A DNA stretch of 64,000 nucleotides from Crambe crambe. Its lineage: Eukaryota > Porifera > Demospongiae > Poecilosclerida > Crambeidae. Both the position numbers and the translations under genes were made by a program. Shown here in pieces: positions 26,657 through 49,041 of this stretch (position 1 is the first letter of the stretch; the number at the start of each line of letters is the position of its first letter). The notes beneath the pieces were generated by a model. That model saw nothing but the letters and a program-made list of their open reading frames with translations, did not search any database and had not been told where the DNA came from. Where the stretch lies: the NCBI GenBank assembly GCA_963924555.1, contig OZ004598.1:5430858-5494857 (forward strand), read 5' to 3'.

Positions 26657-29600
26657 TTATTGTTGGGGTTGTCCCCTGAGATAGTAGACCCAAGAAATGT
26701 CTCTTTGTGGCTTACCACTTGTTCCTTTCACCTTCAAACTGGTCACGGTTAACTTGCCGACTTTGACCAGCCCATGACCATGTCTTCCATCATAACTCAC
26801 ATTGATGTTGTAGTTTCTGCGTGGTTTGATGGAGTCTCCAGCAGTTTTGATGGTGAATGCTGGATGGTCCACTGTAAATTTAAATTGAGTAAGTTGATGG
26901 AAGATATTTTTGAATTGGATATTGATATAGGAGCCTGATCTGATCGTGTAAGGGCCTTGGGGTTTGGGAGGGAGACAGTGACCGAATAAAGGGACGACAT
27001 AATCTCCTCCAGTCAGAGAACTGATGGTAAGTAATGCTTGTGTATCACCCAAGTGGGAGGGTTCAAAGGTCACGTCTGTGCTGGCTTCAGTTCCAATACC
27101 ACCAGATGAAGCAACTGTGATAGATTTGTCTGCCACAAAATCATTGCTGTCAACCTATTGCACACAACAAAGGAGGAAGGTGATTATTCTGTGCCACAGG
27201 GATTCTTATGCTTACCTTAGAGATGTAATCTGTCCTTCCTCGAGCATAACTGATAAACCTACAGGTATGATGTTGACTTCCACCTAAGTTGGCAGTGAAA
27301 TGGATGGGTTTCTCATGGGGACAGGGTGTGGCTGTCAGGTGGAGCTCATATTGATAAGTCCCCAAGTCAGAGCTGTGCAAAGTTAGCTTGCCTGTGGTCT
27401 CACCTACTTTAAGTGGGAGGTACTCAAACATACACTTTCCCTCATTCTCTGCTCCAATGATGAAGTTGGAAGGAAGTGTGACATCAGGAACATTGGACAT
27501 GGTTGTCATAGTGACGGGGTTACGGAGGGGATTGGTAATGGATATGGTATCAGTAACGCTTCTCCTGACCTGACTGGTGAGGTTGATGGTTTCGATGACA
27601 CCAGCTGGAGTAGCTTTAAAAGTCACCATGTAGAAGAGATACTCCCCTGTCTCCTCATTCTTGAATGTCACCTGGAAAAAAAATTGAATCACAAAATAAT
27701 ATGCATGCAGAGTTAACTACCACCCCATTAAATTTTACTACTACATAGTATATACCTTGATTGGAACGTTGCACTCCTTGAAGGATTTAAAGTGGAGCTG
27801 ATAATCTTTCTTACCCAGACCCGGTACATCAATGTAATTCAGCCCATAAAGTAATGTTGACTCGTCCAACCGTTCTGCTTTAAGAGGCTCAATGATGACT
27901 ACAAACCTCTGAGGTCTTCTCAGCCAGTTCTCTACTGTGAGTGGTTCAGTGCGAGGTGTCTTGCAAGGCACCTCCTGTGTGATGGCTTTCACAGGCTTAG
28001 GGGGTTCTGCAACACCACTCAGGTGGAAGAATTGTGCATTTCCATCTGGAGTGGGGAAGAAGATAGAGCCGTAATGTTTCTGTTGTTCAGAGGCCATTTC
28101 CAGTGGGTGGTAAGTGAGTTCATAGTGAGAGGATTGGTTGGCTTCCACAGAGATAGTGTCTGGGCCAGTCCAGTACTGGCCATCAATGGTGGGATGGAGG
28201 TCTCTCCAGTGGGTGCTGGTCTTGTTCTGGATGGTCAAGTGACGAGTTTCTGCTGTACGCACAGTCGTGACAAACTGTAGTGTCTGTTAAAAAATGCACA
28301 TGCTATGCTATAATATTCCTTGTAAGTACCTAACTACATGTTTGCATAGATGCCAAGGCAGCTACAGTATAATAATACATACATCTTTGAAAGGGATTTT
28401 CTCAATACAAATTCCACTGAGAGTCAGTTTGAGAGGTTTTCCACGACCCTCTACTACGCACAGCAAGTTCGGTTTTCTGATGTCTTGATCCAGTTTAGTT
28501 GGATGGAACTCCACGTCAAAGGTCAGCTAAAGTTATAGCAATCAACAGTCAAATAATTCAAACTGTTCCTGTAGCTGCATACCTCCATGCCTGATGAAAT
28601 ATAACCATCCTTGGGAGAGATAGAAAATTCTGGAGCAAAAGCCTCTGCATTCCAGTGAAAGGCTCCTCCAATGTCTCCAGTGTTCAACATGAGTAGTTTC
28701 CTAGTGCTGGAACTGTCTTGAACCACAGCTCCAAATGGAATATGCTCAGTGTCGAGGTTGACTTCAAGTCCTTGGCAACAGCCGGTTACTACAAGAAGAG
28801 GCTGGGAGAGACCAAGGCATTCCATTGTCACTTCTTCAGAAAATTGAGGCACACGACATTTTGGATTGAAGGTGATTGTGATATCACAAGATCCACTGTT
28901 TGCTTTGAGTGAGATCTCTCCACTTGGCTCAACGCTTAACGTGCCATCCTTTTGGAGAGCCGGCACACTAGAACTTGGAACAATACTCAGAGAAAGACTG
29001 AGGGCGGTTGGGCTTCGATTCACCAGCTTGACTGTCTTACTGGAAGACACTCTCTCTTGGTCACTGCTGATTTGAAGTGCTCCAAAATTTACTATTTTCT
29101 GTGCTGGATTAGCAAGCTCCAGCCTCATCTCTGATCCCTCACCTTTGACAGTTATTGTCTTGCGGAAGAATCCATTGATTTCGAAAATGACACTCTCTGA
29201 GTATTTTATAGGATTCTGAGGTTTGAATTCAAGCACAGCATATGTTTCTTCCCCTGGGGCTAGGAGACAGGATTTGAACTGGATGTCCAAATGGGGCAGA
29301 GTTTTGAAGAAACAGTGGACACTCATCTCCTTTGACTCTGAGTTGGTGATTTGTAGTTTCTTGCGTTGAACAGGCATGTCTGGACGGTGCAGAATTGAAG
29401 GACCAAAGTTATATTCCTCAAAACTGAACAGAACAGAAGGTTCTACTGCAGAACCCTCCAGTGTGATGGGCAGGCTTGGACCATTGCTAATCTGGGAGCA
29501 AGATTGAAGAAAAAGTATACGATGATATTTCAAATGAAATTGACAAACCTCTAGAATGAGTTGGCAGTTTTTAAGTGTCATTTTAGTGGTTGGAAGGAAC

Positions 29601-41600: not shown

Positions 41601-44600
41601 AACTCACCAAAGTGCAGGCAAATTCAGCAGGGATGATAGACTGATTGGAGACAGTGACTGTTTTACTGATATGAGTTAGGACAGGACATGGTCCAAACTC
41701 CACATGGTAAGGGGTCACGTACACCACCGGCCCTTCCCCAGTGCAACGAAGAGTGACCTCCAGTGGAGGCTCTGTGCTGTGAAGGATCTTAATAGGAGCA
41801 GAAACGGATATCTCACCTTGAAGCTTGGCCTTGACCTCTAGAGGAAGCTTCAAGGTAGTATGGGGGTTAATTACACCAGTGGGGAAGATTGTTGAGTACA
41901 CCAGTGGATTTTGATTGGGTCCAGGAGGAATCGGGACCTCATATCGAACTGGATGATCAGACTTGTTGAGGAGTTGAGCATCTAAGGTATAGGAGTGATC
42001 CAAAAAGCATCGCTTGTAATCCAGGAGAGATGTTAGGAGGGTAATGTTAGGGACTATGGATTTAGCTGTCACGGGGAGAGAGAAGATTTCCTTTTGGGCT
42101 TCCTGTAACTGTAAAACCATCACTGTCGAGTACTTCTGCACCACCAATGGAGTGAACATAACCTGCAAATTCACATGTCATTCAATCTTAAATTTTGCCA
42201 ATCACATTACCCACCTTGATGACTTGTTGGAAATTTGGAGGGAGTGTCCCTGATTCTGGCACAATTATGAATTCCTTACTGCCAGCAGCATCAGGGGGAT
42301 TTGGAGTCTGCGATTCAGAAGTGGAGAGGTCAGATGAATTCTTCTCATCTGGTATATGGATGCAGAAGGACATAGGAATCTCAGAGGTGTTGGAGAGTGC
42401 CACCTCAAAGGTGCTTGTGAAACCTTTATTGGAAAAAAATCTTATTAATTATTATACACTGTCCTTATTATGAACTCACCACAAGAAATGGTTCCAAAGT
42501 CAATGCTATTGCAGTCAAATTGGAAGGTAGGGCCAATGACTACGCCCCTAATTCTCATTGTGAGTGGGACAGGTGAGTCTTTAAGCTGCCACTGAAACTC
42601 TTCGTTAAATTCACCCATCTCTGGCGAACAGAAAGAAATCTGGACGAAGAGTTATTTCTGGTTAATAATCCCTGCTAGGTCCCCTCTCCTTATGCTCTCA
42701 CCTGGATGGCTTGGAGATGACCAGGTGGAAGTGTACCACTGCTGGGCGAAAAGGTAAAGTAAGGTCCAAAAAAAGAAGAGGATGGGACTACAGAATATAC
42801 AGCATCAATATCCCCTTTATTCTCCATTATCATCTCATAAGCATGTGCTGAGTTGACAAACACATTTTGTACATCAAGACTATCAAAAGAGAATTGGCAC
42901 TTTGGACCAGTGCCTTCCCCCTTGATTTTGAGAGGCAAGCGGGATTCTCTGCCAGTGACGTCACAGTATGCCACTCGGGTATAGGAAGTGGCTGCATCAG
43001 GACAAAAGATGACAGAGATCTCAGCATGGGAATTGGGCCACACTTCTCCTTCCTGCAGAGAAAGAAAAAGTTTTCTTCACTAACTTATTAGCTATGGTTG
43101 TAGGCACCATACGTACTAGAGGATCAATAACAAGACACTCGTCAAAGAACATGAAGCGTTCATCATCTGTGTACTTCTATAAGGAATAGGAGAGAGATAC
43201 ATAATAACGTGGACGCTGATTGATTATGATTGTAAGGACTTGCCTTTCTGTTCATATTGAGTGTCCTGTTGAGGATAGGGAGTCTGTCTCTTATGGAAGG
43301 GTTGTGCATGCAACGCTGGTAGAAAGCCTCCTTGGAAAGCTTTTCTTCCTTTGCTATTTGGTCTACGAGACTGAGGAAAGGGGAGGGAGAGATATGAAAT
43401 TTTGAAAGAAAAAAAAACTAATGGACTCACATTTCTCTGTGTAAGTCTTCTTCCATTACACTAGAGAATGCTTTCCACTGATAGCGAGCCACGACATTAC
43501 TCCTATTATGTAGCAGTACTGACCTACATGTACCGTTGAAAATTAAAAACATGTTAGAAGGAGGGTAAATCCCCTTAATCACCTCTCAGAAGTCAGGCCA
43601 ACGAAGGTAGTGTCTAGAGACATGGAACTGCGGTCTAGGCGAACGTTAATGTCAGTAGCACTACCATACAGCTTGGTGTATACCTTCTCTCCCGTGCTGT
43701 AGTGGATGACCAATTCAGCACTGTGCTCGCTCACCTGACGAGGAGTGTATGAAACATTCACTTGCATACATGCATTTGCAGCCAACATAGCAGTGGATGG
43801 AGTCACTGAGAAAGGCCTGGAATGAGATGTTAGTAACTAGCTATGTTGGTAGAGTACTTTATCAATAATGTTACTTTGTAGTTTCGATGGATAACTTGGT
43901 CTCTGCATTGCCTACGTTTCTCATTAAGATAGTCTTGGTGGAGCAGTGCTGCAAAATAGAATTGTCAGTCATTATTATTTAATTCTCCCTAGCTAGTTAG
44001 TCATCTCTTACCTTCACTGGTGCTGCATTGAAACTGATTTGGTCAGGGAAGTCCAGTAGACCTCTAGCTCCAATTGCCCGTATGGGAATCACAAACTCCT
44101 CACGTTCAGTAATGCAAATCAACTCATGCTCATAATCCTACATCAATCATTAACATTATTACAGGGATCATCAATTAGATGATGATATTCACCGTATTTT
44201 CAGAGGGTCTGAAGCTGACAGTATAAGTTACTTCCATGCCTGGTGCCACTTTTCCACCAGCTCGAAGGCAGTTATAGCTGAAGTAAGGGGACTCTTCATC
44301 AGTAATCTTGATGTGTCGAGCCACTCTGTCCAAGTTCCTCAACTGTAGCGGTACTTCATAGACTTGATGTGGCTTGAATTGCTGGAAAATGATCTCAGAG
44401 GGGAAAGGCTGAAACAGAGCCTGGTCTATACTCAAGCTAAAATCCTGCATTGTAAAACGAGCATGAAGACTGGCTAGTTGCTGAGCTCTTACCAGACTCT
44501 TTCTGGTTTTAGGCCAGCTAGCTAGACATGTATATACCTTGTGGTGTGATGCAGCACTTATGTCCAGCAGCTTGATAATCTTGGGTGGGTACATTTCATA

Positions 44601-44833
44601 CGTTTGCTCTAGTTTTTCTTCAGTCGTCAGTTTCATGTCAGCCAGATAGCTTGAAGGGGATTGCTGGGTACATACATCGATTTTTATTAAGTTATTTAGC
44701 TGGCATAAATAACTACCTTGACTTCCATTTTGGGCCCTTTGATTGTCTTAGTAACCTTATGCCCCATTTTCCTTTGGCCAGTTTTCTTCGGACCCCCTCC
44801 GCCTTTGACAGTAGTGACAGCTTGGAGAGACAT
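26657..44833 (-). CDS. HYDIN: HYDIN, axonemal central-pair protein
   Basis: A giant protein of the C2b projection of the ciliary central pair, required for motile-cilia bending; loss causes hydrocephalus in mammals. The gene takes 18.2 kb and about 40 exons. The N-terminus has MSLQAVTTVKGGGG, then LFQPFPSEIIFQQFKPHQVY, and the C-terminus is SWVYYLRGQPQQ, both matching human HYDIN. Between them are many ASH/MSP-type Ig-like domains (recurring FGxxxxG, VxFxP and SGTLPPG patterns). The large middle exon (37422-35368) holds an adenylate-kinase-like insert with the Walker A motif GPHFSGKST near 36928-36954 and a long Glu/Lys/Arg coiled coil, as in vertebrates. All frames appear intact. It is divergent from PRELID3, with an RFX X-box between them. 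Confidence 0.97.
37505..37672. repeat. Palindrome-rich interspersed repeat, copy B (HYDIN intron)
   Basis: A degraded single copy of the unit also seen in TOPBP1 and INTS8. GGCATCATGCTGAATG appears twice, with TATTGGTCTTCATTGTTATAGCC and GAATTTCAGCC between, partly overlapping the start of a HYDIN exon. Non-coding. Confidence 0.6.
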
Positions 44834-44923
44834 CCTCTTTCTAGCCACTAAGTAACTGAATATAAAATCCACCCGCTTTACATGCTGCAACTTGCACGGT
44901 CAAAGAATTGTCTTTAATGCACA

Positions 44924-44937
44924 GTTACCATAGTAAC
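44924..44937. promoter_or_regulatory. RFX X-box in HYDIN/PRELID3 promoter
   Basis: GTTACCATAGTAAC fits the X-box consensus GTNRCC-N(0-3)-RGYAAC at every position with a two-base spacer. It lies 91 bases upstream of the HYDIN start codon. RFX factors drive ciliary genes across animals through this site, so it is well placed to control HYDIN. PRELID3 starts 69 bases away on the other side and may or may not share this control. Confidence 0.75.
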
Positions 44938-45005
44938 AGGAAGTGCCCGCGTGTGAAAAGGGTTAATAATTAAACTTTTAACACCCAGCTCACGATATAA
45001 TCATC

Positions 45006-45865
45006 ATGTTGGAGTGGTCTGATGTCCATATTTTTAGGTATTGTTGCAAAAAGTTTGAAGTCATTCATAGTTAGTGATTAACTTTCCTCTTGCTCACCAG
45101 CCATCAATGGAAGCTGATGGTAGAGGCTGCATATCGCAAGTACCCCAATCCTTACTCCTCTCATGTGCATTCACTGGACACCTTCGATCGGAGAATATCT
45201 GGGAGCACAATTTATAGTAACAGGCTCTTCTGCACTCTGTGGAAAATACCCACAATAGTGCTAAAGGTAATAGAACTTCTTGATATCTGCTAACCCCTAA
45301 TGGTGTTTTGATTCTATACATCACTTGACCTCAGGTAGTGGGAACCAACCCACAAATGTATGTTAAAGAACAATCAATATGTGACTTAGATCATAAAATA
45401 CTCATCATTCAAGCTCAAAATGTGAGTTTTATAATTGTTCCTTCCCTTCCAAAAGTATTATTCTGTAGATCTCCCTTTCAAACTTCTTTACTCTTAATGA
45501 AACTCTCGAGTATTCCATATGCAAAGATGATCCCTCCAAGTAAGTTGAACTTCAAAACTCACTCAGCTCTTGTACTGGGGGTGTGGCTATCCTAAGCCTA
45601 TTCATACGAGTGATAACCGTATTATATATAGGACAATTCTGAAGCAGACAGCCTGCATCAACGTTCATGGCATTCCACTACTAGGAGACCTAATGGAGAA
45701 GCTATGGCTCAGCCAGTATAAATCCTCCATTGCCAATGTATGTTCCATCAACTTAAAGATCTCACTAGCAGTTAAGGGTAATTGGCACACTGAATCTTAT
45801 TTCAGGGAAGAATGGGAATTGAATCAATTGCAGTTCAAATCATTCAAGAAAAACAGTGCTTTTAA
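45006..45865 (+). CDS. PRELID3: PRELID3-like, PRELI/MSF1 lipid-transfer protein
   Basis: A PRELI-domain (Slowmo) protein. Family members bind TRIAP1 and shuttle phospholipid between mitochondrial membranes. Five exons start with MLEWSDVHIF, join to SHQWKLMVEAAYRKYPNPYS (human WDTVIQAAMRKYPNP), and continue with LDTFDRRI, CTLWKIPTIVLKVVGTNPQM, VKEQSICDLDHKILIIQAQN, ISLSNFFTLNETLEYSICKD and a C-terminal helix ending in GRMGIESIAVQIIQEKQCF. The fold is complete at about 170 residues. The A/B paralog split is vertebrate, so no letter is given. The stop is 29 bases from the NUDCD1 stop on the other strand. Confidence 0.88.

Positions 45866-47860: not shown

Positions 47861-49041
<1,181 letters not shown>

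Follow-up and report, generated by a model that had tools for sequence, protein, structure and literature searches.

Does the 172-base gap between the start codons of HYDIN and PRELID3 in a sponge genome hold a working binding site for an RFX protein, and which of the two genes would such a site serve? The gap (44834–45005) lies in a 64-kb window, the whole stretch of DNA analysed here, which belongs to contig C21; the genome assembly totals 143,139,886 bases and is divided into 119 contigs. Two head-to-head genes, HYDIN on the minus and PRELID3 on the plus strand, flank this divergent promoter region, the limits of which were set by start codons taken from the open frames: 44831–44833 for HYDIN (CAT on the plus strand) and 45006 for PRELID3. 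The 14-mer GTTACCATAGTAAC at 44924–44937 (no strand assigned) is an X-box with two inverted half-sites, both conforming to GTTRCY, and a 2-base spacer. The distance to the start codon is 90 bases on the HYDIN side, a proximal upstream position, and 68 bases on the PRELID3 side. The site satisfies GTHNYYATRRNAAC, which we take to be the X-box consensus string, on both strands. The word "perfect", used for it in the sequence-only reading, applies to this degenerate consensus; from the symmetric GTTGCCATGGCAAC, presumably the X-box optimum, GTTACCATAGTAAC differs at three positions. For GTTRCCNNRGYAAC, 44924–44937 is the sole mismatch-free match in the window. The consensus quoted in the available text of PMC10530576, GTNRCC N0–3 RGYAAC, is satisfied as well.

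For the identity of HYDIN, three frames of the gene were searched in Pfam and one in PDB. The open frame with the N-terminal exon (44175–44747, minus strand) matched the PDB entry "Hydrocephalus-inducing protein" (E 2e-25), and a second frame (42690–43076, minus strand) contained a HYDIN/VesB/CFA65-like Ig domain (PF22544, E 5.3e-17); the gene thus has both the N-terminal sequence and the Ig-like repeats of HYDIN. No relatives of the HYDIN exon were found in GTDB genome contigs or viral contigs. The first three coding exons of PRELID3 (45006–45037, 45101–45266, and 45335–45421, plus strand; together spanning 45006–45421), with splicing judged by frame, were covered by the domain and PDB searches. 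They encode a PRELI domain (PF04707, E 4.5e-15), which is closest to PRELID3A and PRELID3B, the top PDB matches; the PRELID3 query also retrieved two weak loci in viral contigs. Exons of the proteasome family are located at 48294–48883, approximately 2.4 kb past PRELID3. The sequence-only reading had proposed a consensus X-box, a divergent gap of 172 bases and HYDIN as the adjoining gene, and all three proposals were confirmed, the last of them by the PDB match.

The same genome encodes RFX proteins with a conserved DNA-binding domain. Five pieces of this domain were detected at three loci, one on C12 and two on C18, and the C12 piece shares 48 of 61 residues (79%) with hRFX1. The two loci on C18 (1530673–1531358 and 1550420–1550781) are approximately 19 kb apart on opposite strands and are perhaps the result of an old duplication. 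We consider it likely that the 14-mer functions as an RFX X-box of the proximal HYDIN promoter and that HYDIN shares this control with a wider set of ciliary genes in the sponge. In this model, a dimer of an RFX protein, most likely the RFX1-like one from C12, would occupy the two inverted half-sites and raise HYDIN transcription in cells building motile cilia. Binding, dimerization, activation, and cell type are the inferred parts of the model; the site, its position, the RFX genes, and the excess of similar sites upstream of ciliary-family genes are observed.

The X-box might drive both genes, in which case PRELID3 expression would follow ciliated cells, for example, to meet a mitochondrial need in flagellated cells or sperm. 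This is compatible with, and not exclusive of, the proposed role at HYDIN. Both start codons border one gap of 172 bases, at 68 and 90 bases from the site, and X-boxes are near-symmetric and can act in both directions. Against this, the ETS-like AGGAAGTG (44938–44945, plus strand; it includes GGAAGT), which abuts the X-box on the PRELID3 side, could drive PRELID3 alone. Joint control is a tentative possibility, and the placement of PRELID3 under the same X-box is a guess.

If the HYDIN X-box belongs to a wider set, similar sites should be enriched upstream of other ciliary genes. Sites were scored with a palindromic matrix that was hand-made from consensus strings with our own weights, and upstream regions comprised the 1,200 bases before the first HMM match, not before the transcription start. 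The first ciliary set consisted of 11 genes (TPH, 2; DM10, 2; SHIPPO, 2; tektin, 3; DUF4200, 2), from which two DUF4200 rows on C17 had been dropped as below the cut-off, as was one CH_2 row on C12 from a later set. The ciliary role of the families used is our assumption, as are the gene names CFAP45, MNS1, EFHC, DRC1/2, and SPEF1. The control comprised 15 proteasome anchors, five of which (L051, L062, L063, L066, and PSMB5) start past profile position 30 and may be intragenic, and two of which (L053/L054) appear to be nearly duplicated; a further proteasome locus, at C11:4241687 (L065), was left out. HYDIN itself was excluded from all counts of ciliary versus proteasome genes.

With a threshold of 11, chosen once the scores of the first sets (11 ciliary and 15 control genes) were known, the best site reached at least 11 in seven of the 11 ciliary-family genes and in none of the 15 proteasome anchors (medians of the best scores 13.2 and 6.5, respectively; Mann–Whitney p 0.001). 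Among 1,000 column-permuted motifs applied to these sets, none reached seven genes, and one separated the sets as well by Mann–Whitney. In a first held-out set (CH_2, 2; NYD-SP28, 2), three of four genes scored at least 11 (19.0, 16.5, and a narrow 11.2), which raised the count to 10 of 15 ciliary genes versus none of 15 controls (p 1e-4); of 2,000 permuted motifs, none reached 10 genes of the combined set and one reached three of four in the held-out set. Tctex-1 is a mix of ciliary and cytoplasmic light chains. In this second held-out set, none of the four genes reached 11 (best score 7.9). Including this negative set, 10 of 19 ciliary-family genes have an X-box of at least 11 compared with none of the 15 proteasome controls (Fisher p 7e-4). 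The RFX genes in this genome and the X-boxes upstream of further ciliary-family genes of the sponge support the sequence-only reading in part.

The plain consensus strings, counted without Tctex-1, agree with the matrix in direction, but the numbers are weaker: exact GTNRCCNNRGYAAC was present in 2/15 ciliary and 0/15 control genes, exact GTHNYYATRRNAAC in 4/15 and 0/15, and GTHNYYATRRNAAC with one mismatch in 10/15 and 2/15. Neither FOX nor CCAAT motifs distinguished ciliary from control sets, and GGAAGTG was found in four of 15 ciliary genes versus one of 15 controls.

The distance between X-box and start codon was determined for 11 of the first 15 ciliary genes, with start codons read by eye. 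The gaps ranged from 18 to 238 bases, seven of them between 50 and 140, and the 90 bases at HYDIN fall inside this range. The shortest belong to NYD_C13 (18 bases) and CH2_C15 (20 bases), followed by NYD_C19 (51), EFHC_C15 (57, weak site of 9.2), DUF4200_C5 (60), EFHC_C14 (62, weak site of 9.6), the tektin gene on C15 (68), DUF4200_C19 (80), the tektin gene on C19 (138), the MNS1-like gene (194), and SHIPPO_C19 (238). For Caenorhabditis elegans, an X-box distance of 100–250 bp is given in the accessible part of PMC2873420.

A 14-mer of this kind could also have come to lie between HYDIN and PRELID3 by accident and be functionless. The score of the HYDIN X-box (18.4) is the maximum of the window, and only two of 20,000 dinucleotide-shuffled versions of the gap reached this value, whereas 66 reached 13 and 236 reached 11. 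Outside the gap, the window contains three sites with a score of at least 13 and none of at least 18; at this rate, approximately 1% of 172-base stretches would contain a site of at least 13. The occurrence of these three sites speaks for chance; one of them (27502–27515, score 14.2) falls into a coding frame in the HYDIN region and is itself probably accidental. A match to GTHNYYATRRNAAC is not telling in itself, because it is found at four places of the window (five rows), which exceeds the shuffle expectation of 0.32 rows; three of these places are not at a ciliary start. Also in favour of an accident, the 143-Mb genome contains 12 exact copies of the 14-mer (three for the pattern read backwards), and none of the 11 other copies was placed at a ciliary gene. 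Against it stand the rarity of such a score in the shuffled gap and in the window, the low expected rate for a stretch of this length, and the membership of the adjoining gene in a class in which such sites are overrepresented. Taken together, an accidental origin appears very improbable.

Ten of the 11 other copies (L001–L010) were examined together with their flanks (1.5 kb per side), C21:4148502 being the one left out. Pfam searches covered ten selected frames, nine from L002–L009 and one from L011, a locus beside a related X-box that had no match in Pfam or PDB; none came from L001 or L010. Within this scope, no ciliary gene was found at the ten loci. The neighbours were a TRIM-like gene (L002/L003), TSPO (L006), and UBR4 (L009), together with PDZ (L004) and SRCR (L007) below the Pfam cut-off, and no gene name was assigned to the neighbourhoods of L001, L005, L008, and L010. 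The exact 14-mer was rejected as a marker of ciliary genes, since none of its other copies was placed at a ciliary gene within this scope; alone, it does not predict a ciliary gene. The case for the HYDIN X-box rests on place and gene together and not on the sequence by itself. At L002 and L003 (C5:694196 and 694261), a short tandem repeat just upstream of the TRIM-like frame contains the 14-mer twice, at a distance of 65 bases. At L004 (C6:162586 and 162768), two X-box palindromes lie 182 bases apart near the weak PDZ-like frame, and at C5:8175817–8175878, GTTGCCATAGCAAC is repeated three times with a spacing of 24 bases.

GTTRCCATRGYAAC gave 309 rows genome-wide compared with seven for the control. 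This count was rejected as evidence, because it is inflated by a repeat family and counts each palindromic site once per strand. The palindrome of this family, GTTGCCATGGTAAC, was found at 11 of the 19 loci L011–L029 (L015, L019–L021, and L023–L029), all on C1, approximately 12 bases from one edge of a shared block; the family may disperse RFX sites across the genome. That the HYDIN X-box is a remnant of a repeat carrying such a palindrome is, despite the abundance of this family, exceedingly improbable, as the HYDIN 14-mer differs from GTTGCCATGGTAAC, its flanks are unlike those of the repeat, and the window is absent among the BLAST matches listed.

A further point against the reading of the HYDIN X-box as a working site within the ciliary set is that HYDIN lacks the E-box CACGTG found at six of 10 other ciliary X-boxes. 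This hexamer was noticed by eye in the flanks of the X-boxes, and the genes of its discovery also served for its test. Over the full 1,200 bases, CACGTG was present in nine of 15 ciliary and four of 15 control genes. Of 14 genes, namely 13 ciliary genes and HYDIN, which is without CACGTG, eight had the hexamer no more than 80 bases from the best site (0.66 expected); SHIPPO_C14 and CH2_C20, two of the 15 ciliary genes, were omitted from this count. Within 60 bases of an X-box of at least 11, it occurred in six of 10 ciliary genes, the same as those of the discovery, with gaps of 5–23 bases (L035, L041, L083, L086, L089, and L090); random placement of CACGTG (n = 20,000) gave a mean of 0.78 genes and never reached six. 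At the same distance, no CACGTG was found at the 12 other X-box loci (L001–L011 and L022), the 15 best control sites, or the eight window sites of at least 11, that of HYDIN included. The Tctex-1 genes provided no fresh test of the E-box, because they have neither a strong X-box nor CACGTG.

Near the HYDIN X-box, CACGCG (44948–44953, minus strand) is one base off CACGTG and 10 bases from the site, which may be due to chance. A more far-reaching model, in which sponge ciliary promoters would combine CACGTG with an X-box at approximately 5–25 bases, a bHLH protein would act with RFX, HYDIN would carry a one-base variant, and the control would extend to PRELID3, is in our judgement unlikely. The pairing of CACGTG and X-box is unreported in the accessible portions of the literature found on X-boxes with E-boxes. 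The E-box beside ciliary X-boxes, found and tested on the same genes, is possibly new; its confirmation would add an element to the known control of ciliary genes.

Among the genes for which RFX control has been studied, spag6 is a central-pair gene. According to the available text of PMC10530576, RFX controls ciliary genes in a choanoflagellate, the RFX motif is present in 21.9% of conserved ciliome promoters versus 2.0% of all promoters, and the output of a Salpingoeca rosetta spag6 reporter drops upon mutation of the RFX site. An RFX–cilium link older than animals had been argued from genomes, as far as the accessible part shows (Chu, 2010; PMC2873420). The sequence-only reading had offered the locus, if from a sponge, as a demonstration that RFX control is older than the major animal lineages; this evolutionary claim is not new, because choanoflagellate RFX control of ciliary genes is already reported in the consulted sections of PMC10530576. 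An X-box survey of a sponge did not appear in the available portions of the RFX and sponge literature found (PMC10530576, PMC13331133, PMC4650134, and PMC3493443; few subscription papers).

Compared with the known RFX regulation of ciliary genes, as described in the accessible text of sources including PMC2873420, the sponge shares the inverted GTTRCY half-sites near ciliary-gene starts, an RFX protein with a conserved DNA-binding domain, and the within-genome enrichment of sites upstream of ciliary genes. It differs in being known from sequence alone, in having strong X-boxes at 10 of 19 genes, and in the CACGTG beside six of 10 ciliary X-boxes. As in the S. rosetta spag6 promoter (PMC10530576, available text), an RFX site is found at a ciliary gene; in spag6 it is a single site, GTTGCCAA, proven by experiment, whereas HYDIN has a two-half palindrome identified by its sequence. 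The HYDIN X-box is real, probably working, and of a known kind, now in a sponge. The sequence evidence suggests an RFX ciliary module closely resembling that of other animals and of choanoflagellates; the HYDIN/PRELID3 promoter offers a testable RFX target in sponges and a further case of a known rule.
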